Positions 1,485-58,939 of a DNA stretch of 64,000 nt are shown one piece after another. A model generated the notes under the pieces. It was not told where the DNA came from and searched no databases. It saw only the letters and a list, made by a program, of their open reading frames with translations. Made by a program: the position numbers and the translations under genes. Source of the stretch: Eubacteriales bacterium (GTDB lineage: Bacteria > Bacillota > Clostridia > Christensenellales > Aristaeellaceae); assembly GCA_028693055.1 (NCBI GenBank), contig JAQUWD010000009.1:1-64000 (forward strand), read 5' to 3'. The stretch's first letter is position 1, and each line of letters opens with the position of its first letter.

Positions 1485-2411
1485 ATGAATCTTCAACATC
1501 TGCGTTATGCCGTGGAGGTAGACAACGCCCATTCCATCACCTTAGCTGCCGAGAAGCTATACATGAATCAGCCCAACCTATCCCGTGCTATCCGGGAGCT
1601 AGAAAGCGGTCTAGGCTTTACCGTGTTTAACCGCACGCCCCGGGGTATTATCCCCACGGCGCAGGGAGAAGAGTTTCTTCATTACGCCCGGAGTATCCTC
1701 AGTCAGTTTGACGAAATGGTTGCTCGCTATGAGGAAAAAGATACTAAGGAACCAGCCTTTCGGCTCTCCGTCCCCCGGGCCAGCTACATCGCCTCCGCCT
1801 TTTGCCGTTTCGCGGCGGCGCTTCATGGCAAAATCACGCTGGATTACAAAGAAACCAACGCCCTTCGCGCCATCCGCAACGTCAGCGAGGATAATTTTGA
1901 TCTAGGAATCGTGCGCTACCAAGCGATTTACGAGAAATACTTTCTCAATACCTTTCGAGAAAAAAAGCTTCAGTATCGAGACATCTGGTCTTTTCGCTAT
2001 TTAATTACCTTGCGGGAAGATTTACCGCTGGCGAGAAAACCGTTTATTGATCAGCAGGAGCTGGAAAACTGGGTGGAGCTAAGCCACGGGGACACCTACG
2101 TGCCGTCCTTACCCCAACGTGAAATCAAGGTGCACAATCCCAACAACGCCCTGCGTATTTACGACCGAGCCAGCCAATTCGAGCTTTTACGCGCGCTGCC
2201 CAAGGCATACATGTGGGCTAGCCCTATTCCAAACGAGCAATTGAAGCTTTACGGGCTGGTACAACGGCCGGGTCGGAAGCAGTCCGCCCTTTACAAGGAT
2301 GTGCTGATCTTTCAAAAGCAGTACATGCTATCCCCCTTGGGCGAGCACTTTCTTGAGGAATTAGAGAAAGAAAAAAAGGGCCTGACCCCGAAGGAAACGG
2401 GTCGGCCCTGA
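1485..2411 (+). CDS. LysR-family transcriptional regulator
   Basis: A 308-residue protein, normal for LysR regulators. Residues 1-60 form the winged helix-turn-helix (MNLQHLRYAVEVD, then LYMNQPNLSRAIRELE and the wing FNRTPRG). The remainder is a weakly conserved substrate-binding-like effector domain. The start is fixed by AAGGAGGGG seven bases before the ATG at 1485; a longer in-frame extension upstream has no such site. It diverges from the ketopantoate-reductase-like gene across about 140 bp, so that gene is the likely target together with its own promoter. The effector cannot be read from sequence. The last ~12 codons lie inside a hairpin that serves as terminator for the convergent SulP gene. 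Confidence 0.85.
   Translation: MNLQHLRYAVEVDNAHSITLAAEKLYMNQPNLSRAIRELESGLGFTVFNRTPRGIIPTAQGEEFLHYARSILSQFDEMVARYEEKDTKEPAFRLSVPRASYIASAFCRFAAALHGKITLDYKETNALRAIRNVSEDNFDLGIVRYQAIYEKYFLNTFREKKLQYRDIWSFRYLITLREDLPLARKPFIDQQELENWVELSHGDTYVPSLPQREIKVHNPNNALRIYDRASQFELLRALPKAYMWASPIPNEQLKLYGLVQRPGRKQSALYKDVLIFQKQYMLSPLGEHFLEELEKEKKGLTPKETGRP
2371..2410 (-). terminator. Terminator of the SulP gene, embedded in the LysR coding end
   Basis: On the minus strand the arms AGGGCCGACCC and GGGTCAGGCCCT pair with a one-base bulge and are followed by a run of seven T. The T run lies downstream for minus-strand transcription, so it ends the SulP transcript. The same bases encode the C-terminus of the LysR protein. 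Confidence 0.75.
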
Positions 2412-2453
2412 ATGAATTGCTTGCGTTTGATTACGAAAACTACAGTTTCACTG

Positions 2454-4088
2454 TCAGGAGGCTAGCAGCCGCGCCCGTTCAAGGGCCGCGTCAATGTTGG
2501 GGCACAGGTTTTCCTCTCCCAGCGCTTCATCAAAACCCGCCTTGTGCATGACCTCCATAGGCTGGGGCATCACGTGGGACAGAATCATCGTCACCCCCTG
2601 CGCCTTGCAGGTGTCCAGCAGCTTTTGCATACTCTGCATAGCCGTTGCATCCATGGCGCTCACGCCCCGCATGCGTAGCACCAGCGCTCGTGTATGAGCC
2701 TCGGTGGTAATGGCCAGCAGCTTATCCGCCGCCGCGAAGAACAGCGAGCCCTCCAGCTCGTACACCAGCGTCCCCTCCGGTACGGGGCGCAGGTGCTCAT
2801 CCTCCGACATAGCCGCTTCGTCAATGGTCCAGCTGCGCACATCAGCCACCTGAGCCATACGCTTCATCAGTAGCAGCATACTCATCAGCATACCGACCTC
2901 GATGGCGATTACCAAATCAAAAATCACCGTGAGCAAGAAGGTAATGACCAAAACGGCAATATCGCTCTTTGGCGCGGTTTTTACCAGCTTGGCAAAACGC
3001 CGCCACTCGCTCATATTATAAGCCACCATCAGCAGAATGGCTGCAATCGCCGGCATAGGAATCAGCGCTGCATAAGGCATCAACGCCACCAGTATCAGCA
3101 ACAGCACCACGGCGTGCACCATTCCCGAGACAGGGGTGCGTCCTCCGTTTTTCACGTTAGCAGCCGTGCGGGCAATCGCGCCCGTAGCGGGAATGCCGCC
3201 GAACAGCGCGGAGGCGATGTTGCCTGCACCCTGTGCAATCAATTCCATATTGGGATTGTGTCGAGCGCCGATCATACCGTCGCTGACCACGCAGCTTAAC
3301 AGCGATTCGATTCCCGCTAGCAGTGCGATGGTCAATGCATCGGGAAGCATATCGCGTATCAGAACAAAGTCAAATGCGGGCAGGCTCACCGTAGGCAGTG
3401 CGCTGGACAGGGTGTACAGGCTGCCGATGGTATTGACCGGCAGCTTGAAAAGCTGCACCATTCCGATGGAAACCAGCACCGCGATCAGCGAACCGGGAAT
3501 CCGTTTGGACACCTTCGGCCACAGGATGAGAATCGCCAGCGAAACCGCGCCCACCAGCAACGCCCATAGATTGACCGTACCAAAGGCGGCAGCCGCACCG
3601 GAGAGCTTTTCCATGGTTTCAACGGGCGCGCCCTGAACCGTAAGGCCGAAAAAATCCTTTAGCTGACCAATGGCAATGGTGATGGCGATGCCGCTGGTAA
3701 AGCCGGTGGTAATGGTGGCGGGTATATACTTAATCAGGCTGCCGAACCTCAGCAAGCCCATAATGATCAAAATCAAGCCAGCCATTAGGGTGGCCACAAT
3801 CAAGCCGGTCATTCCACTCTTGGCTACAATGCCGGCAACAATGGTGGCAAATGCGGCGGTAGGTCCTGCGATTTGCACCCGGCTGCCGCCCAGCAGCGAT
3901 ATGATAAACCCAGCGGCTATCGCCGTGTACAGCCCGATTTCAGGGCCCACGCCGGACGCCAGCGCCAGCGCAATGGAGAGGGGAAGCGCGATAATCGCCA
4001 CAATAACGCCCGCGACAGCGTCGCGGCCAAATTGGGCGGCCGTATAACCCTTGAGTGTAGAAAACAATTGGGGACGAAGCTTTTCCAT
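2454..4088 (-). CDS. SulP-family anion transporter with STAS domain
   Basis: This is a 544-residue integral membrane protein of the SulP/SLC26 family, whose members move sulfate, bicarbonate or other anions. Residues ~1-400 hold about 10-12 hydrophobic segments, including GLYTAIAAGFIISLLGGSRVQIAGPTAAF, the family's anion-site region with the QIxGPTxA motif. Residues ~430-540 form a cytoplasmic STAS domain (LVYELEGSLFFAAADKL, then MRGVSAMDATAMQSM). The ATG at 4088 is preceded by AGGAGGACCTT; a start 22 codons further upstream is open but lacks a ribosome site. It is convergent with the LysR gene and divergent from adhE. Substrate specificity cannot be decided from sequence. Confidence 0.9.
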   Translation of the reverse strand: MEKLRPQLFSTLKGYTAAQFGRDAVAGVIVAIIALPLSIALALASGVGPEIGLYTAIAAGFIISLLGGSRVQIAGPTAAFATIVAGIVAKSGMTGLIVATLMAGLILIIMGLLRFGSLIKYIPATITTGFTSGIAITIAIGQLKDFFGLTVQGAPVETMEKLSGAAAAFGTVNLWALLVGAVSLAILILWPKVSKRIPGSLIAVLVSIGMVQLFKLPVNTIGSLYTLSSALPTVSLPAFDFVLIRDMLPDALTIALLAGIESLLSCVVSDGMIGARHNPNMELIAQGAGNIASALFGGIPATGAIARTAANVKNGGRTPVSGMVHAVVLLLILVALMPYAALIPMPAIAAILLMVAYNMSEWRRFAKLVKTAPKSDIAVLVITFLLTVIFDLVIAIEVGMLMSMLLLMKRMAQVADVRSWTIDEAAMSEDEHLRPVPEGTLVYELEGSLFFAAADKLLAITTEAHTRALVLRMRGVSAMDATAMQSMQKLLDTCKAQGVTMILSHVMPQPMEVMHKAGFDEALGEENLCPNIDAALERARLLAS

Positions 4089-22712: not shown

Positions 22713-23241
22713 AAGCTTCGATGGAAAGCCGATCATTGTCGATTTTTCACAACGCCTAGAGACAGGCGTTCACTATTGCCTGATGGGGCCGTCAGGCTGC
22801 GGCAAAACCACATTGCTGCGCTTATTGATGGGGCTGCTACAGCCGGACGCAGGCGAGGTGCGCGGCAGCAGCAAAATGAGCGCGGTTTTCCAAGAAAATC
22901 GACTTTTAGAGCCTTTCAACGCTATTGCTAACGTAGAGCTTGCTACCGGCGCTTCCCGGGGTGAAATCGAAAGGCTGCTGATGGAGCTAGGCCTAGAAAA
23001 AGAAAGCCTATTTCAACCTGTCAGCGCTTTTAGCGGCGGGATGAAGCGGCGCGTCGCTTTGGCCCGGGCATTGCTGGCAGAGTATGACGCCCTGTTTCTG
23101 GACGAGCCCTTCAAAGGGTTGGACGACGAAACCAAGGCTCGCGTCATGAGGATTGTATCGGAGCGAACCAAGGGAAAAACTGTCTTGCTGGTAACCCATG
23201 ACGAAACGGAAACCCTCGGCTTTCAGCCCATTTCCTTATAA
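22687..23241 (+). CDS. NitT/TauT-type ABC transporter ATP-binding protein, short form
   Basis: A 184-residue ATPase of the transporter, clearly shorter than the usual 240-260. All nucleotide-binding motifs are present: Walker A GPSGCGKTT, Q-loop VFQENRLLEP, signature FSGGMKRRVALARAL, Walker B ALFLDEPFKGLDD and switch His in LLVTHDETE. The chain ends shortly after the switch region, so the C-terminal extension is missing. The start is GTG 22687 with AAGGAGG upstream. It may be a naturally compact variant; no frameshift is apparent, as the frame ends cleanly before a terminator. Confidence 0.85.
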   Translation: MLEAVHLSKSFDGKPIIVDFSQRLETGVHYCLMGPSGCGKTTLLRLLMGLLQPDAGEVRGSSKMSAVFQENRLLEPFNAIANVELATGASRGEIERLLMELGLEKESLFQPVSAFSGGMKRRVALARALLAEYDALFLDEPFKGLDDETKARVMRIVSERTKGKTVLLVTHDETETLGFQPISL

Positions 23242-23248
23242 GCCATAA

Positions 23249-23280
23249 ACGCCAAAGCGTCTGCGCAATGCAGGCGTTTT
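23249..23280 (+). terminator. Terminator of the NitT/TauT operon (left copy of a duplicated hairpin)
   Basis: The arms AAAGCGTCTGC and GCAGGCGTTTT (23254-23280) form an 11-bp stem with loop GCAAT. The identical 27 bp recur at 23442-23468 on the far side of the inserted element. Confidence 0.8.
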
Positions 23281-23441
23281 AGTATGTCAAAAAAGCGCTA
23301 CGCGCTTTTTCGCCAGTTACGGGTAATGTTTGCGGCTTTGCCGCAAACTGCCCGCCCGCCCGGCAAAGCCGGTCGATACGAATACAGTCGGGGTAGCCTT
23401 CGGGCTCCCCCGACACCCCCTTAAGAATTTTTCAACAACCT
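23281..23441 (+). mobile_element. Hairpin-rich ~161-bp dispersed element, copy A
   Basis: The element contains a series of hairpins: AAAAAGCGC/GCGCTTTTT, GTTTGCGGC/GCCGCAAAC, CCGGC/GCCGG, and GTCGGGG-AGCC/GGGCT-CCCCGAC. Its ends are imperfect inverted repeats (left AGTATGTCAAAA; right TTTTTCAACAACCT). A near-identical inverted copy lies at 39245-39406 and related copies near 58.7-58.9 kb. It codes for nothing recognisable. It is flanked by perfect 27-bp copies of the local terminator hairpin. It is most likely a non-autonomous mobile element. Confidence 0.75.
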
Positions 23442-23468
23442 AAAGCGTCTGCGCAATGCAGGCGTTTT
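23442..23468 (+). repeat. Right 27-bp copy of the terminator hairpin flanking element A
   Basis: Identical over 27 bp to 23254-23280. It is exactly one hairpin (11-bp stem, 5-nt loop), followed here by TTTTTT. It ends the intergenic repeat region; 62 bp later the nagB promoter begins. Confidence 0.9.
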
Positions 23469-23530
23469 TTTCTGCCGCTAATCACCTGTGGTCGGGACGG
23501 GAGACGTTTAACTTCGGCAGCATTCCAGCC

Positions 23531-23559
23531 TTGACAGCCTCAAAAGGCAGTGTTATACT
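23531..23559 (+). promoter_or_regulatory. Sigma-A type promoter of nagB
   Basis: A perfect TTGACA (23531-23536), 17-bp spacer and TATACT (23554-23559). The remaining ~80 bp to the start codon show no clear operator. Confidence 0.85.
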
Positions 23560-23642
23560 CTATCAAAGATGTATTTAGTATAAAAACCAGTACATCAACG
23601 GTTTTCAGCAATACGTATTACAGTACGAGGAGGGCTTTTTCA

Positions 23643-24368
23643 ATGCAAATTCATCTTTATGATCATGCCGAACAGGTCGGACAGGCTGCCGCTACTTTAA
23701 TCGCCGCGCAGGTAATTTCCAAGCCTGATTCTGTTCTAGGTTTGGCTACAGGTTCTACCCCCATTCCCACCTACCAAGCCCTAATCAAAATGTATCGGGA
23801 TGGCGTGCTAGATTTTTCTAAGGTGCGCACCTTTAATTTGGACGAATACTGCAAGCTGCCCATCGATCACGAGTGCAGCTATCATAGCTTTATGAGGGAG
23901 CAGCTCTTCGACCATATCAACCTTCCCCTTGACCATACCAGAGTACCGAACGGCAATGCCGAAAACCTCCAAGAAGAGGGCGCGAACTACGATATGGCCA
24001 TCTCCCGAGCCGGCGGCATCGATATTCAGGTGCTGGGCATTGGACGCAACGGTCATATCGGCTTTAACGAGCCAGCCAACGCCTTCGTCTACGGCTGCCA
24101 CGTGGTCAATTTAACCCAGAGCACCATCGAGGCAAACCGTCGCTTTTTTGACAGTGAGGACGACGTACCCCGTCAAGCCATCAGCCTAGGCATTGGTAGC
24201 ATTATGAACGCCCGCAAGGTGCTTTTGCTAGCGACCGGCGAGGATAAGGCGCAGGCCATCCGCGATGCGATTTACGGCGATATCAATCCCAAAACGCAAG
24301 CCAGTATTTTGCGTACCCATCCCGACGTTATCTTCCTGCTGGACAAGGCTGCCGCAGGGTTACTATAA
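23643..24368 (+). CDS. nagB: Glucosamine-6-phosphate deaminase
   Basis: NagB converts glucosamine 6-phosphate to fructose 6-phosphate and ammonia, feeding amino sugars into glycolysis. The 241-residue length fits Gram-positive NagB. Motifs seen are LATGSTPIPTY (phosphate loop), the catalytic NLDEYCKL (Asp and Glu), GIGRNGHIGFNEP with the catalytic His, and LLLATGEDKAQAI. GAGGAGGG precedes the ATG at 23643; an in-frame extension of 31 codons lacks a ribosome site. It is monocistronic, with a strong promoter, and converges on the ANTAR gene. Confidence 0.95.
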   Translation: MQIHLYDHAEQVGQAAATLIAAQVISKPDSVLGLATGSTPIPTYQALIKMYRDGVLDFSKVRTFNLDEYCKLPIDHECSYHSFMREQLFDHINLPLDHTRVPNGNAENLQEEGANYDMAISRAGGIDIQVLGIGRNGHIGFNEPANAFVYGCHVVNLTQSTIEANRRFFDSEDDVPRQAISLGIGSIMNARKVLLLATGEDKAQAIRDAIYGDINPKTQASILRTHPDVIFLLDKAAAGLL

Positions 24369-39215: not shown

Positions 39216-39244
39216 GAGCCGGGGAGGCATAACCTCCCCGGCTC
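39216..39244. repeat. Left 29-bp copy of a terminator hairpin flanking element B
   Basis: The arms GAGCCGGGGAGG and CCTCCCCGGCTC pair perfectly (12 bp) around loop CATAA. The same 29 bp recur at 39407-39435. The rest of the 399-bp gap between the DMT and Ig-protein genes, apart from element B, shows nothing. Confidence 0.9.
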
Positions 39245-39406
39245 AGATTGTCGAAAAACTACTTAAGGGGGTGTCGGGGGAGCCCGAAGGCTACCCTGAC
39301 TGCAATCGTATCGCCCGGCTTTGCCGGGCGGGCGGGCAGTTTGCGGCTCTGCCGCAAACAGTACCCGTAACTGGCGAAAAAGCGCGTAGCGCTCTTTTGA
39401 CACGCT
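39245..39406 (-). mobile_element. Hairpin-rich ~162-bp dispersed element, copy B (inverted)
   Basis: The reverse complement aligns with copy A over its full length with only scattered changes, including the GTTTGCGGC/GCCGCAAAC hairpin, the CCGGC/GCCGG hairpin and the segment GGGCTCCCCCGACACCCCCT. Ends read AGCGTGTCAAAA and TTTTTCGACAATCT, an imperfect inverted pair. It is bracketed by perfect 29-bp duplicates of a different hairpin from that at copy A. Confidence 0.8.
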
Positions 39407-39435
39407 GAGCCGGGGAGGCATAACCTCCCCGGCTC
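39407..39435. repeat. Right 29-bp copy of the hairpin flanking element B
   Basis: Identical to 39216-39244. As the copy nearest the Ig-like gene (stop at 39461), it is the probable terminator of that minus-strand gene, although only short T runs follow. Confidence 0.85.
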
Positions 39436-39460: not shown

Positions 39461-42400
39461 TTAGTCGCCCATGCCAATGCGCTCGCTAGTGTTGGTAACT
39501 ACAGTATTAGCGGAATTTTCAGTCGTCGGGGTCTTGATTTCTTCGGAGACCTCTTCCTTTTCACCCGTTGTACCCTCTTCGTCAATAACGACCTCTTCTT
39601 CAGCGGGATCGATCGTCTCCTCTTTGGCGACAACCGTTACAACGATCACCACTACCTTGGGGCTATCTCCGGCTAGCGTGCCGGTGATGGTGGCTTTACC
39701 AGCGGTCACGCCTGTAACAGTGCCGGTTTCATCCACCTTGGCAATTTCAGGATGACTGGACTGCCACGTCATTCCATCCTTCTTGAGCTTTGCGGACACC
39801 GCTTTTACAGTATCAACCGCAATTTTCATGGTATTCGTTTTCGTTGCAGGCTTCACGATGGTCACTGCGCACTGTGCGGACTTCGTTTCGTCCTCTACAG
39901 AGGTAGCGGTTACGGTTAAGGAGGTAGCGGTTTCCTTCTCGCCGATAACCAAATTGCCCGTATCGGAGAGGGAGGAATTGCCGTCCGTTCCCGCTAGCGA
40001 CCAGTTCACCTGATCGCCATGGTTTAGCGCCGCGCTGAACTGCTTACTCTGTCCGGCTACCATCTGTGCGCTGGCAGTGTCCAGCTGGATGGTAACAGGC
40101 TCCTTCACAATAATGGTTGTGGATGCGGTAACCGTGTTGTCCTCAGTGGATACAGCGGTAACCGTCAGCTGCGTATCATGGGCTTCAGCGCCTACGTTCA
40201 GCGTGCTGCCATCCATACTGGAAACCGTGCCGCCCGTTACCTCTAGCGCTACGCCTCCACGATTGGTGGCTGCAATAATACTCACCTGACTGTTGGTGGG
40301 CGCCGTCTCGGGTGCGGCGATTTGAATGGTTACGGGCTCCTTTACAGGCTCCTTCACGGTAACTGTTACGGAGTTCTTCACGCTTGCGTCTTCGGTAGAA
40401 ATAGCGGTAACCGTCAACTCTGTACCGTCTGCTTCTGCGCCGATGCTCAGCGCACCGTTATTCATTGCGGAGGCCGTGCCGCCCGTTACCTCCCAAGTAA
40501 CGCCGCCGCGGTTCGTGGTTGCATTGATATTGACACTGCTGTTGGGCTCTGCGGTACTCGCTGCAGCGTCTAGGAACAGCACGACAGGCACGTTCACCGT
40601 AATCTGGGCCGTCGCCGTTGCGCTGCTATCCTCATCGGATACAGCCGTAACGGTCAAAACAGTTTGATGCTCTTCCGTCAATCCCACGGTCAGTACATTG
40701 TCAGCCATAGAGGAGCTGCCATTGCCGCCGCTTACCGTTAGCTTGACACTCCCGCTGCTGGCGGCAGCGGTAAAGGTGACGCTTCCACCGGCGTTTACGG
40801 TTTCAGCTTCGGGGCTGATCGTAACCGTAACGGGCTTTTTGACCGTAACCGTCGCCTTCTGCGTCTTGGCGCTATCCAGCGCTGCGGTCGCAACTACCTC
40901 AATGCTTTCGGCGGTTTCGTTCGCGCCAATCGTCAATAAGCCGTTTGCATCGATGGTAGAATCGGCTGCTCCGTTCAACGACCAGTTGATCGCTCCGTCG
41001 CTTACGGCGGCGGTAAAGGTCTGAGAATCGCCCGTTTTCAGCGTGCTCTCAGCGGGAGCAATGTTCTGGGTGAACTCAACGGTCAAGGCTTCCACAGTTA
41101 CGCTCATTTCGGCGGTGAGGGAAGCGTCCTCAGCAGAGGTCGCGCTCACCAGCAGCGTATCAGCGGTTTCCGACAGGGCAACCGTGAGCAATCCATTCTC
41201 GTCGATGGTGGTTCCGCTGTCCTTATTGCCCGACAGGCTCCATGTAACCGCGCTACTCACGCTTCTGCTTTGAACCGCCGCGGCATACATAGCCGTTCTG
41301 CCGGTAGGCACAGACTTTAAGCCCGTCATGGTAATCTTACTGCGAGAGGAAGGCAAGACGGTAATGAACTTCGTTTGATAAATATCGCTGTTGCCGCTGT
41401 ACACGGCGGTTACAGCAATTAAGCTTCCTTCTGCCGCATCGTCGTTGACCTTAATGTTGCAGGAGTAATCATTGCCGGAGGTCGACGTTTTAGAGACGGT
41501 CGCGCCGCTGCCGAGGACGAATTTGATCGTCTCGCCGCTCTTACCATTGGCTAGGGTTGCCTTAAAGGTTCCCTCTCCTCCGGGCGCCAGCGTTCCGGCA
41601 GACTCAACGAAGCTAATAGAAACCGGTGTTTCCGTCTTAAAATAATCCACTACGATGGAGCAGGTAGCCGACTTGGTGGTATCCGCAATGGAGGTAGCGG
41701 TTATCGTCAGCTTGGAGGCGGTTTCATCAGCCGCGACCGTCAGTACGCCATCCTTAATCATGGTTGACTTGGAAGTGTTGCCGCTCAAATCCCAATACAC
41801 CATTTCGTTGCTGGTGTTCTTTGCATATGCAACGAAGGTCGTGCTTACCGCAGTGCTCGCTGCGGGCTGCTTGACGCTGGTAGGCGCTTTAATAAACTCT
41901 ACCTCAACGGTGCCGGTTGCAGCGTCGCTGGATACCAGCGTAATCAAAATCGTGTTGGAGTAGGTAGAACCGCTAATTGCAGCCGTTACGCTAATGTTGC
42001 CCACCGGCTCGTTGCGGTCGATGACCAGTACGCCTTCATTGGGGCTGTCCGCATCCCAAGTGATAGCCGTGTTGACGCCGCTTTGTCCGTTGATGCTCCA
42101 CGTCCAAGGCAAATCGCTCTGCTTGCCCACGTAATTGGACAGCGTAGCGTTCAACACCACGCTCTTAGCGGAGGTGCCAACCGGAACGGTGATTCTGCTG
42201 GCGCTGATGGATATCTTCGCGTCAGCGGAGGCCGCGTCAAAGACGGCGGTCACCGTTGCTTTGGTAGGATCAGCGTTGACGGTAAAGGTGGTGCTCTTCG
42301 CGCCCGCTACCGTGAACAACGACGTTCTTCCCTGCAAAGTGTCAAAGGTATATCCCGTAAGCGCGGTTAGCTCAATGGTGGCAGTATAGGTCTGCCCGAT

Positions 42401-44995
42401 CACATAGTTCGTATCGGTAGGAGACACAGAGGTTACGGTACCGCTGAACTGGGAGTTAGCCGTAACAGCGTAGCCTGTTTTAACCAGCTCGCCCACAGCG
42501 GGAATCTGCACACCGGAAATATAGTAGGAGGATACTGGCTCTGTGCCGCCGATAGCGGTAAAGTCGCAGTAGCCGAAGGTAGCCGAAGCCACACGCAGTG
42601 CCTTTGCGCTACCGGTGGTATCCGTAAAGGTAACCGTGGTCGTGGAATCCAACAGACTGTAAGCGCCGTTCATGGAGAAGGATACATCCGCGCGATAAGC
42701 AGTATCCTTCATGAAATGACCATATTGATCCAGCTGCCCCAGCCACGATACGCTAGCCGTATAGTACTGATCCTTGATCGCCGCTCCAGCCGCGTCGTAA
42801 ACTTGGCCGCTAAAAGAAGTTAAGGGTGACTTTCCTGCCACAGGAGTCAAGGTATTCGGCATGGTAATAGAGATCTGCTGCGTATTGGCAACTGCCGCAG
42901 TGGTCACTGATACTTTTTCCGTATAAATACCATTACCGGAGGCTGTCACAGTCAATGCGGAGCCCTTATCGGCGGTAGTTACCGTATAAGACCGAGTGTT
43001 GGAAACAACGACTCCATCCTTGTTGCGAACCCACGCATAGCTGACCTGCGTACCGCTTTCAGCCTGCCACGGGCTCACGTCCGCCCGCAAGGTCTGTCCG
43101 CTTAGGGGCGCATTGGAGCCTAGGGCTCCGGCAGCGGACTCATTATAGATGCTAATCCCTGTCAGCTTCATGGCGGCAACCACAGCGTTGGTAGGATCGC
43201 TCACTACCGTACCGGCATTGGCTCCACCGCCGTTGACCTGCACACGAATTTGCTTGCCAATATCGGAGGCTACAACCTTGTAGGATTGCCCACCTACGGA
43301 GGATTCGTTATTTACAAACCAGATATAGGTATTGCTTGCAGCCTGGCGATCGGGTGTTACAACAGCAGTGACAATATCGCCAACTACGGGAGAAGTAATA
43401 TTCAACGCCACGGAGGTTAACGGTGAAGCATCGGAGACCACCGCAGTTCTAGCAGTGGTAATGGAACCGCCGTAAGCGCCCGTACCAGTGGCTACAGCAT
43501 AAAGACGGAGGTTTTTATCGCTGCTCTTCACTGTATAAGCAGCGCCGTTGCCAACAGCGGTAGCATTTCCCTCTTGGAACCATTGGATATCGGCAGTGCA
43601 GTACGCCGGCCCGATAGCAATCCCCAGCGTATCGCCCACCACGGGAACCGTGGAGCCGATCGCAACATTGTTAAAGGTAATGCTAAAGTTAGTCAGCAAG
43701 GTCTTTGCCACCGGCGAGCTAGCTTCGCTACTGGCGACGCCGCTGTAGCCATCCTTGCCCGTTACGGTAACAGTGATCGTCTTGCCCATATCAAAGGCGG
43801 TCACCAGATAGGTGGGATTGGTACCCATCTTAATGCCGTCCACATACCACACATAATCAGCCGATGCAACGACAGGCGTAATAACGGCGCTTAGCGTATT
43901 GCCTACTACAGGCATCGTAGAGCTGAGCTTTACACTGATGATGTCATTGCCGCTGACAACCTTGCCGGTGGCCAAGCTGCTAGCGCTGCCGGTAAACTGA
44001 TCAGTAGCGGTAACAAATACCTGTACGCTCTTTTCTTTATCCGCAGCGGTCACCGTATAGGATGCGGTGGTGGCCTTTTCCACACCCGCCACGCGCCAGC
44101 TGTAGGTAACAGTGGCCGAGGAGGGAATGATGGCTGCGTTTAGCACATCTCCAACCACAGGCACGCTGTGGTCCTTATTAGCGTTTACAATGCTAACGCC
44201 GGTAATTTTACGTTCGTTGGTTACTGCGGCGGTATCATAGGTAACGGTCGCGCCGGAGTATTCTCCCGTTCCCGTGGCCGTGATACGAATCTGGCAACCG
44301 TTATCGGAGGAGGTAACCATATAGCTAGCGCCCGTTCCAAGAGCGGTGAGATTTCCTTTGGAATCCACCCGCGTCCATGTAAAGGTGGCGGTCGCCTGCT
44401 GGGGTACGGTGACGGGCGTAAGCCGATCGCCGACGACAGGATAGGGGTAATTCGCGCTGACAGCCGTCAGCGGCGCAAAGGTAGGCGTAGGAGTAGGCGT
44501 AGGCTGCTCAGGCATTTTCAGGAACTGAGTCATCATATACCCGATGCTGCTACCGATTCTCACCTGACACCATTCGTCCCCATAGGTCAGAATGCTGACA
44601 GGCGTGCCCACACTGTACAAGCCGAGCCGCTTGCCGCTCTTGGAGGAGCGCAGCCAGACCTTTAGCCCATTACCGCTGGTAACGGTGGCGGTACCCTTCG
44701 ATACAAGGCTGGCGTCCGTACCGGCGGCAATCAAATAACGGCTCATCATGTAGCCGATATTCGTGCCAGCCTGAATACGCGTCCAAACAGCGCCCTGCTC
44801 CAAAATAACGATGCTGGTACCAGACGGCAGCGTTATTGTACTGTCATAAGTGGTCGCGGGGCCGCTACGCATACGTACGCCATACTTATTGCCGCTGTAA
44901 ACGGTAGCATAGTTTTCCGCCAACGACACACTAAGCGGCGCCAAGCTGCACAGCAGCGCTATCAACAATAATGTGATGAGAATTCGCTTCTTCAT
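39461..44995 (-). CDS. Very large secreted SH3 / multi-Ig-like repeat surface protein
   Basis: An 1844-residue exported protein. A signal peptide (residues 1-27, KKRILITLLLIALLCSLAPLSVSLA) is followed by two bacterial SH3 domains (~30-165, each ending GYMMSRYL or GYMMTQFL) and a Pro-Thr linker. Six Ig-like repeats follow, each opening with a variant of PVVGDxL, then a divergent middle section (~690-900). About ten BIG2-like repeats (typified by TVTAVSTEDASV) lead to an acidic Glu/Thr-rich tail. There is no LPxTG motif or transmembrane anchor, so attachment may rely on the SH3 domains. The ATG at 44995 has GGAGGG upstream. It is likely a cell-wall-bound adhesin or stalk; the ligand is unknown. 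Confidence 0.88.
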   Translation of the reverse strand: MKKRILITLLLIALLCSLAPLSVSLAENYATVYSGNKYGVRMRSGPATTYDSTITLPSGTSIVILEQGAVWTRIQAGTNIGYMMSRYLIAAGTDASLVSKGTATVTSGNGLKVWLRSSKSGKRLGLYSVGTPVSILTYGDEWCQVRIGSSIGYMMTQFLKMPEQPTPTPTPTFAPLTAVSANYPYPVVGDRLTPVTVPQQATATFTWTRVDSKGNLTALGTGASYMVTSSDNGCQIRITATGTGEYSGATVTYDTAAVTNERKITGVSIVNANKDHSVPVVGDVLNAAIIPSSATVTYSWRVAGVEKATTASYTVTAADKEKSVQVFVTATDQFTGSASSLATGKVVSGNDIISVKLSSTMPVVGNTLSAVITPVVASADYVWYVDGIKMGTNPTYLVTAFDMGKTITVTVTGKDGYSGVASSEASSPVAKTLLTNFSITFNNVAIGSTVPVVGDTLGIAIGPAYCTADIQWFQEGNATAVGNGAAYTVKSSDKNLRLYAVATGTGAYGGSITTARTAVVSDASPLTSVALNITSPVVGDIVTAVVTPDRQAASNTYIWFVNNESSVGGQSYKVVASDIGKQIRVQVNGGGANAGTVVSDPTNAVVAAMKLTGISIYNESAAGALGSNAPLSGQTLRADVSPWQAESGTQVSYAWVRNKDGVVVSNTRSYTVTTADKGSALTVTASGNGIYTEKVSVTTAAVANTQQISITMPNTLTPVAGKSPLTSFSGQVYDAAGAAIKDQYYTASVSWLGQLDQYGHFMKDTAYRADVSFSMNGAYSLLDSTTTVTFTDTTGSAKALRVASATFGYCDFTAIGGTEPVSSYYISGVQIPAVGELVKTGYAVTANSQFSGTVTSVSPTDTNYVIGQTYTATIELTALTGYTFDTLQGRTSLFTVAGAKSTTFTVNADPTKATVTAVFDAASADAKISISASRITVPVGTSAKSVVLNATLSNYVGKQSDLPWTWSINGQSGVNTAITWDADSPNEGVLVIDRNEPVGNISVTAAISGSTYSNTILITLVSSDAATGTVEVEFIKAPTSVKQPAASTAVSTTFVAYAKNTSNEMVYWDLSGNTSKSTMIKDGVLTVAADETASKLTITATSIADTTKSATCSIVVDYFKTETPVSISFVESAGTLAPGGEGTFKATLANGKSGETIKFVLGSGATVSKTSTSGNDYSCNIKVNDDAAEGSLIAVTAVYSGNSDIYQTKFITVLPSSRSKITMTGLKSVPTGRTAMYAAAVQSRSVSSAVTWSLSGNKDSGTTIDENGLLTVALSETADTLLVSATSAEDASLTAEMSVTVEALTVEFTQNIAPAESTLKTGDSQTFTAAVSDGAINWSLNGAADSTIDANGLLTIGANETAESIEVVATAALDSAKTQKATVTVKKPVTVTISPEAETVNAGGSVTFTAAASSGSVKLTVSGGNGSSSMADNVLTVGLTEEHQTVLTVTAVSDEDSSATATAQITVNVPVVLFLDAAASTAEPNSSVNINATTNRGGVTWEVTGGTASAMNNGALSIGAEADGTELTVTAISTEDASVKNSVTVTVKEPVKEPVTIQIAAPETAPTNSQVSIIAATNRGGVALEVTGGTVSSMDGSTLNVGAEAHDTQLTVTAVSTEDNTVTASTTIIVKEPVTIQLDTASAQMVAGQSKQFSAALNHGDQVNWSLAGTDGNSSLSDTGNLVIGEKETATSLTVTATSVEDETKSAQCAVTIVKPATKTNTMKIAVDTVKAVSAKLKKDGMTWQSSHPEIAKVDETGTVTGVTAGKATITGTLAGDSPKVVVIVVTVVAKEETIDPAEEEVVIDEEGTTGEKEEVSEEIKTPTTENSANTVVTNTSERIGMGD

Positions 44996-45073
44996 TTGGG
45001 TATCCCTCCATTTAACGTATAGCGGCCGCGCGCATAACACACGACATCGTTATCCTGTTATTCCCCATGACAA

Positions 45074-58662: not shown

Positions 58663-58739
58663 GCGTGCAAAGCCGGTCGATACGAATACAGTCGGGTAGC
58701 CTGCGGACTCTCCCGACATCCCCTTTGAGAGTAAGACAG
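58663..58739 (+). mobile_element. Truncated copy of the dispersed element (right half only)
   Basis: Matches the second half of copies A-C (AAAGCCGGTCGATACGAATACAGTCGGG and TCCCGACATCCCC...). The left half with the first two hairpins is missing. It lies directly after the peptidoglycan-binding gene. Confidence 0.75.
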
Positions 58740-58750
58740 ACTCAGGCAAC

Positions 58751-58778
58751 AAAAAAACAGGCTCGCGCCTGTTTTTTT
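58751..58778 (+). terminator. Bidirectional terminator hairpin left of element C
   Basis: Arms A7CAGGC and GCCTGT7 form a 12-bp stem with loop TCGC. A near-identical hairpin with loop TTTC closes the region at 59099-59139. Confidence 0.85.
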
Positions 58779-58784
58779 GCTCTC

Positions 58785-58939
58785 AGCGTGTCAAAAAGCG
58801 CTACATGCTTTTTCGCAAGTTACGGATGATGTTTGCTGCTCTGCTACTAACTGCCCGTCCGTCCGGCAAAGCCGGTCGATACGAATACAGTCAGGGTAGC
58901 CTGCGGGCTCCCCCGACATCCCTTGGGGTACGACAATCT
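58785..58939 (+). mobile_element. Hairpin-rich dispersed element, copy C (full length, diverged)
   Basis: Begins AGCGTGTCAAAAAGCG and ends ACGACAATCT, like copies A and B, and follows them in order over about 155 bp. The two inner hairpins are decayed (e.g. GTTTGCTGCTCTGCTACTAAC), so it looks older. Confidence 0.8.

Follow-up and report, generated by a model that had tools for sequence, protein, structure and literature searches.

A dispersed MITE between two copies of one hairpin and its probable mobilization by an IS1182-family transposase at hairpin targets

The window analysed here is a stretch of 64,000 nucleotides (contig JAQUWD010000009.1 of an Eubacteriales bacterium) in which a short element lies between two copies of one hairpin, with a second copy and two degenerate copies further along. 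The features are as follows.

23254-23280, plus strand: left hairpin copy, exact repeat; 27 nt, or 25 nt (23255-23279) if the TAG/CTA ends are counted in the element
23280-23442, plus strand: MITE, 163 bp including the terminal TAG..CTA (161 bp, 23281-23441, without the terminal bases), from genome copies and end motif
23280-23293, plus strand: left terminal inverted repeat TAGTATGTCAAAAA, family form CAGnnTGTCrAAAA
23289-23311, no strand: subterminal hairpin of the MITE
23328-23348, no strand: internal hairpin of the MITE, compensatory changes among relatives
23360-23372, no strand: internal hairpin of the MITE, compensatory changes among relatives
23387-23414, no strand: internal hairpin of the MITE, paired only partly in the consensus structure
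23429-23442, minus strand: right terminal inverted repeat (TTTTCAACAACCTA on the plus strand)
23442-23468, plus strand: right hairpin copy, exact repeat, followed by a T-run read from the sequence
39217-39243, no strand: 27-bp hairpin adjoining the second MITE, identical to 39408-39434
39244-39407, minus strand: second MITE copy, 164 bp
39408-39434, no strand: 27-bp hairpin at the opposite end of the second MITE
58667-58922, plus strand: two degenerate MITE copies separated by one hairpin (58667-58725 and about 58785-58922)

The sequence AAAGCGTCTGCGCAATGCAGGCGTTTT is present at 23254-23280 and again at 23442-23468 with 27/27 bases identical, and this repeat is the sole direct-repeat family reported within 23000-23700. 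A previous sequence-only reading of this DNA had described an exactly duplicated 27-bp hairpin, with an 11-bp stem and a 5-nt loop, enclosing a 161-bp element with inverted ends. Both copies lie where it had placed them, the 27-mer folded as RNA is paired end to end (11 pairs and a loop of 5), and the rechecked coordinates of the element agree, its length being 163 bp if TAG and CTA are included. In this alternative drawing the 163-bp element (23280-23442) lies between 25-bp repeats (23255-23279 and 23443-23467). The window copy ends in TAG..CTA, while most copies of the family end in CAG..CTG. The hairpin had also been called a terminator, a label owed to the stem followed by seven T residues in the right copy, as read from the sequence; however, a strict terminator scan of 23150-23560 returned no terminator-like site (0.9 expected by chance). 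Just downstream of the right hairpin there is a sigma-70-like match (23531-23559, 11/12 with a 17-nt spacer), which precedes an ORF whose ATG is near 23643.

No ORF of at least 60 aa was found inside the element and an Rfam search of 23000-23700 gave no match. Three internal hairpins are predicted from an alignment of 19 relatives, some of them incomplete, and at 7 of the 22 pairs at least one sequence is changed on both sides with pairing kept. Two relatives discussed below, L182 and L174, likewise have an inverted repeat just inside their left end (read by eye). A search of the bacterium's own genome with the window element produced 45 matches, of which 42 are near-full copies (at least 135 bp aligned) and 3 are short inverted pieces. 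With 163 bp, 42 near-full copies, a terminal inverted repeat and no long ORF, the element is a MITE, and it is dispersed, as had been supposed from the window. The pattern TCAGnnTGTCrAAAA is found in 15 of the 17 genomes of the genus, at 0 to 62 per genome, with 0 to 1 per genome for the reversed-pattern control. A different group of MITEs (L122 1353-1514 and L161 562-724, in genomes G006 and G005, with a longer form of 280 bp at L162) differs from the window type in its interior but has the ends and the hairpin duplication in common with it. Elements and hairpins alternate in tandem arrays at L051 5061-5390, at L048 4872-5201 and at 58667-58922 of the window, as would result if a second element inserted into one of the duplicated hairpins. 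The second MITE copy in the window adjoins a repeat-rich ORF of 1,859 aa (39461-45040, minus strand), whose product is by its look perhaps surface-exposed.

At most copies in this genome the left and right flanks are two copies of one hairpin, which differs from locus to locus. When flanks were swapped between different loci, 32 of 43 true pairs scored above 12, the highest value among 1,792 swapped pairs; the fragment at 58667-58725 was left out of the 44 pieces, and the terminal 12 nt of the element, which do not differ between true and swapped pairs, are included in the comparison. These between-locus pairs replaced an earlier swap control that was contaminated by the tandem arrays and in which 0/44 exceeded the maximum. 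For three of the 32 (L051:5201, L048:5013 and window:58789) the match is partly the end of the neighbouring element in a tandem array. Relative to 2,000 random stretches of the window, the left 42 nt fold within the top 5% at 28/43 copies, the right 42 nt at 22/43 and both at 20/43. Where the two hairpins of a MITE are mismatched, the differences amount to 16 in total: 6 in the stem with pairing kept in both, 4 in the stem with pairing lost in one and 6 unpaired. Two of the six that keep pairing are the two sides of one compensatory change at L062, and 16 differences are too few to claim selection on paired hairpins.

Copies without a hairpin duplication had been named beforehand as one observation that would speak against the idea, and they do exist as a minority: 11/43 have no significant flank duplication in the swap control. 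Several of the 11 have one hairpin, the opposite side being lost, recombined or decayed. L005 and L050 have a left hairpin only, L002 (1501-1654) has differing left and right hairpins, L018 and L019 are nearly the same in their right-side sequence, L052 has an IS1182-type end on the right, and L023, L029, L048:5201 and L054 are decayed or truncated. L008 has no strong hairpin and a 5-bp repeat, TAAAT, read by eye. Together with the deletion copy L074, where only a 5-bp repeat is present, this shows that a hairpin is preferred but not required. The unlike hairpins on the two sides of L002, and of the relative L174, could have arisen by recombination between copies or by assembly joins at repeats.

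Larger elements with the same habit carry a transposase. A search of 150 genomes of the taxonomic family with Pfam DDE_Tnp_1_6 matched 44 of them, and at L182 a transposase of 449 aa is flanked by CAGCCTGTCAAAAA-type ends and by a hairpin present in two copies. Scanning with this transposase gave 43 loci, and a plasmid search for relatives gave 1,321 records, from which 8 loci were taken; 7 of these have a hairpin as target-site duplication (TSD), L246 and L250 having the TSD and the neighbours in common. At L249 an IS66 gene adjoins and no right end was recovered. In all, 25 of 82 related-transposase loci, several of which are one place taken twice, have a TSD of at least 14 bp beside CAG..CTG ends, representing 23 distinct TSDs. 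Full elements between duplicated hairpins are found in Lacrimispora, Tetragenococcus, Enterococcus, Streptococcus and Mogibacterium among others, and the TSD loci also include Peribacillus, Salinivibrio and Providencia, so that among the loci sampled the behaviour spans Bacillota and Gammaproteobacteria. Their terminal inverted repeats match at 10-14 of the 14 end bases at the 25 TSD loci, where CAG..CTG and at least 9 matching bases were required. No 14-bp TSD was seen at the other 57 of the 82, many of which are contig-end pieces or fragments; four loci where both ends are present, L225, L228, L232 and L174, likewise lack a TSD of at least 14 bp.

All six transposases compared with the NCBIfam IS1182 model NF033551 pass it, at 375-495 bits against a cut-off of 270; five come from hairpin-TSD loci and the sixth, L166, has other ends. 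The DUF772 and DDE domains were present in 4/4 transposases tested, L166 included. For IS1182, ISfinder reportedly lists variable direct repeats. The CAGnnTGTCrAAAA ends of the MITE resemble CAGCCTGTCAAAAA of L182, from the same taxonomic family, and CAGTCTGTCAAAAA of L174, from the same genus. L174 matches in its ends, but its hairpins differ between the sides and there is a stop within the range tested. The bacterium's own genome yielded no intact autonomous element with the ends of the MITE. The one intact IS1182 element found there (L166, gene at 2145-3716) has ends GGG..TGTCTCAAAA and was rejected as the source of the MITE's transposase on account of these different ends and because a hairpin TSD was not observed; its end sequence also abuts the MITE in L052. 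It is the common ends and the target behaviour that lead us to infer that an IS1182-family transposase moves the window MITE.

Comparison of occupied with empty loci had been proposed along with the sequence-only reading, and it bears out the expectation of a single hairpin in two plasmid cases and, for a MITE that has the same ends but a different interior, in a sister species. The five empty sites (L255, L256, L257, L258 and L269) have one hairpin each. Among the pELF plasmids of E. faecium, AP026614 is occupied by an element with two hairpins, while AP026606 and AP026619, read as empty sites among the 37 records matched by the left flank, have one hairpin between 60-nt flanks that are the same as in AP026614. 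Likewise, CP114591 of Salinivibrio is an occupied plasmid, and CP114589 and CP114585 have one hairpin at the corresponding place; Salinivibrio L254 was discarded as a comparison site, its downstream region being different and no such hairpin being found there. The G005/G006-type MITE in G006 has a 34-bp hairpin on each side, and the sister species G010 has one homologous, not identical, hairpin with no end motif in the stretch read. G010 has the same left gene as G006, with about 0.5 kb more before the hairpin, and a right side that is 89% identical. For the window-type MITE no empty site was found, and the search for an empty L161 site in a sister species gave only distant partial matches.

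The duplicated unit had been described as precisely one complete hairpin with its edges at the foot of the stem, and this description stands up well across the wider set. In 42 distinct cases (19 MITEs, collected with strict end motifs and ungapped repeats, and 23 full IS) the TSD is 16-34 bp long and centred on the dyad of the hairpin. Neither edge is more than 1 nt from the stem foot in 34/42 (15/19 MITEs and 19/23 IS), and in 27/42 both coincide with it. Among the MITEs a TSD of at least 14 bp was seen for 15/18 pairs in the own genome and 4/5 in other genomes. Complementarity of the outer six bases is 0.86 for MITEs and 0.88 for IS at the observed place and 0.21-0.48 after sliding by 1-6 nt. 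The length of the TSD correlates with the span of the hairpin (0.93 and 0.96), partly by construction as the span is measured inside the TSD. Pairing sometimes runs outward beyond the TSD, by up to 8 pairs, and some edges therefore fall short of the outermost base pair that could form. The target duplications of most DDE transposons are short and of constant length.

These data are best accounted for by strand transfer at the 5′ feet of an extruded cruciform, and we infer extrusion because the length of the duplication follows that of the hairpin. The dyad-centred TSDs would also suit a symmetric transposase assembly that binds the inverted repeat as duplex DNA and cuts at the outer limits of the repeat without any cruciform, and the outermost bases, A and T in 26 of the 42, might betray some sequence preference of such an assembly. 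However, the site sequences are unrelated and the TSDs vary from 16 to 34 bp, when a fixed protein geometry on B-form DNA should fix the spacing of the cuts, and this explanation is in our opinion an unlikely one. Equally doubtful is that the hairpin forms in single-stranded DNA at a replication fork, where the element enters and the second strand is joined or filled later: single strands readily form hairpins, but the two edges of the duplication are symmetric, and DDE transposases, to which this enzyme belongs, act for the most part on double-stranded targets. That two hairpins predate the element, or that the element brings one along, is very improbable in spite of the fact that terminator hairpins can occur in tandem, since the hairpin varies by locus yet matches its partner and empty sites carry one.

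We consider it highly likely that the window element is a MITE moved by an IS1182-family transposase at hairpins, with the whole hairpin copied by way of an extruded cruciform. The transposase would pick its target by an inverted repeat able to form a hairpin, often a terminator, which suggests that it senses the shape of the DNA rather than its sequence. The two 3′ ends of the element would then be joined to the target, one on each strand, at the 5′ foot of the hairpin there; these points are 16-34 bp apart along the DNA and would be near each other at the four-way junction of the extruded cruciform. Gap repair would copy the whole hairpin to leave a complete one on each side. The sequence-only reading had envisaged a staggered cut at the cruciform base followed by repair; the hairpin duplicated at the stem foot and the empty sites with one hairpin agree with it, and a likely IS1182-family DDE transposase takes the place of its unknown endonuclease. 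At 15/19 MITE sites the 8 nt before the hairpins contain 5 or more A, or the 8 nt after them 5 or more T (an uncontrolled count). These A-rich and T-rich tails outside the hairpins would remain in place, and neighbouring genes may keep working terminators. The more general proposal, that a clade of the IS1182 family and its MITEs perform structure-specific strand transfer in which the size of the extruded cruciform sets the joining distance and the terminator is spared, seems to us rather probable, with less assurance. Hairpin duplication could explain dozens of entries into terminators at little cost, and duplications that track the size of the hairpin would let these elements serve as natural reporters of hairpin extrusion in vivo.

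Duplications of hairpin length had been thought foreign to known insertion sequences. Full IS1182-family elements produce them and stem-loop targeting by this family is in print, but duplication of the whole stem-loop is, in the sections of PMC5678879 available to us, only proposed. A search of the open-access literature (ISfinder pages and most subscription papers fall outside its scope) returned no observed whole-hairpin target duplication in the portions of text it covers, which is weak evidence of novelty. According to the accessible parts of PMC5678879 and PMC4923244, IS1272 and TnSha1 of the IS1182 family target stem-loops, several of them terminators, with no sequence consensus, and the stem-loop is wholly or partly lost. 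They resemble the present elements in their IS1182-family transposase and stem-loop targets. In contrast to IS1272, where the target is replaced and lost with no TSD, the whole stem-loop is doubled here; the available text of PMC5678879 depicts this outcome as possible pathway b, with joining at the 5′ foot. The IS1182-family MITEs of ISMac2 are short like the window MITE (160 and 169 bp), but have direct repeats of 4 and 0, and the part of PMC3852290 at hand describes no hairpin duplication. ISEfa7, an IS1182-family name taken from the annotation of L246, L249 and L250, has ends CAGACTGTAGACAAAG .. TTTTGTCTACAGTCTG and a hairpin TSD like the MITE, and an ISEfa7-like element annotated only as transposase (L248) has an empty site with one hairpin. 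ISEfa7 is a full element of 1,536 bp with a transposase, whereas the window element is a MITE of 163 bp whose ends are related to those of ISEfa7 but not the same. The present elements are a hairpin-duplicating variant of the hairpin-targeting IS1182 family.
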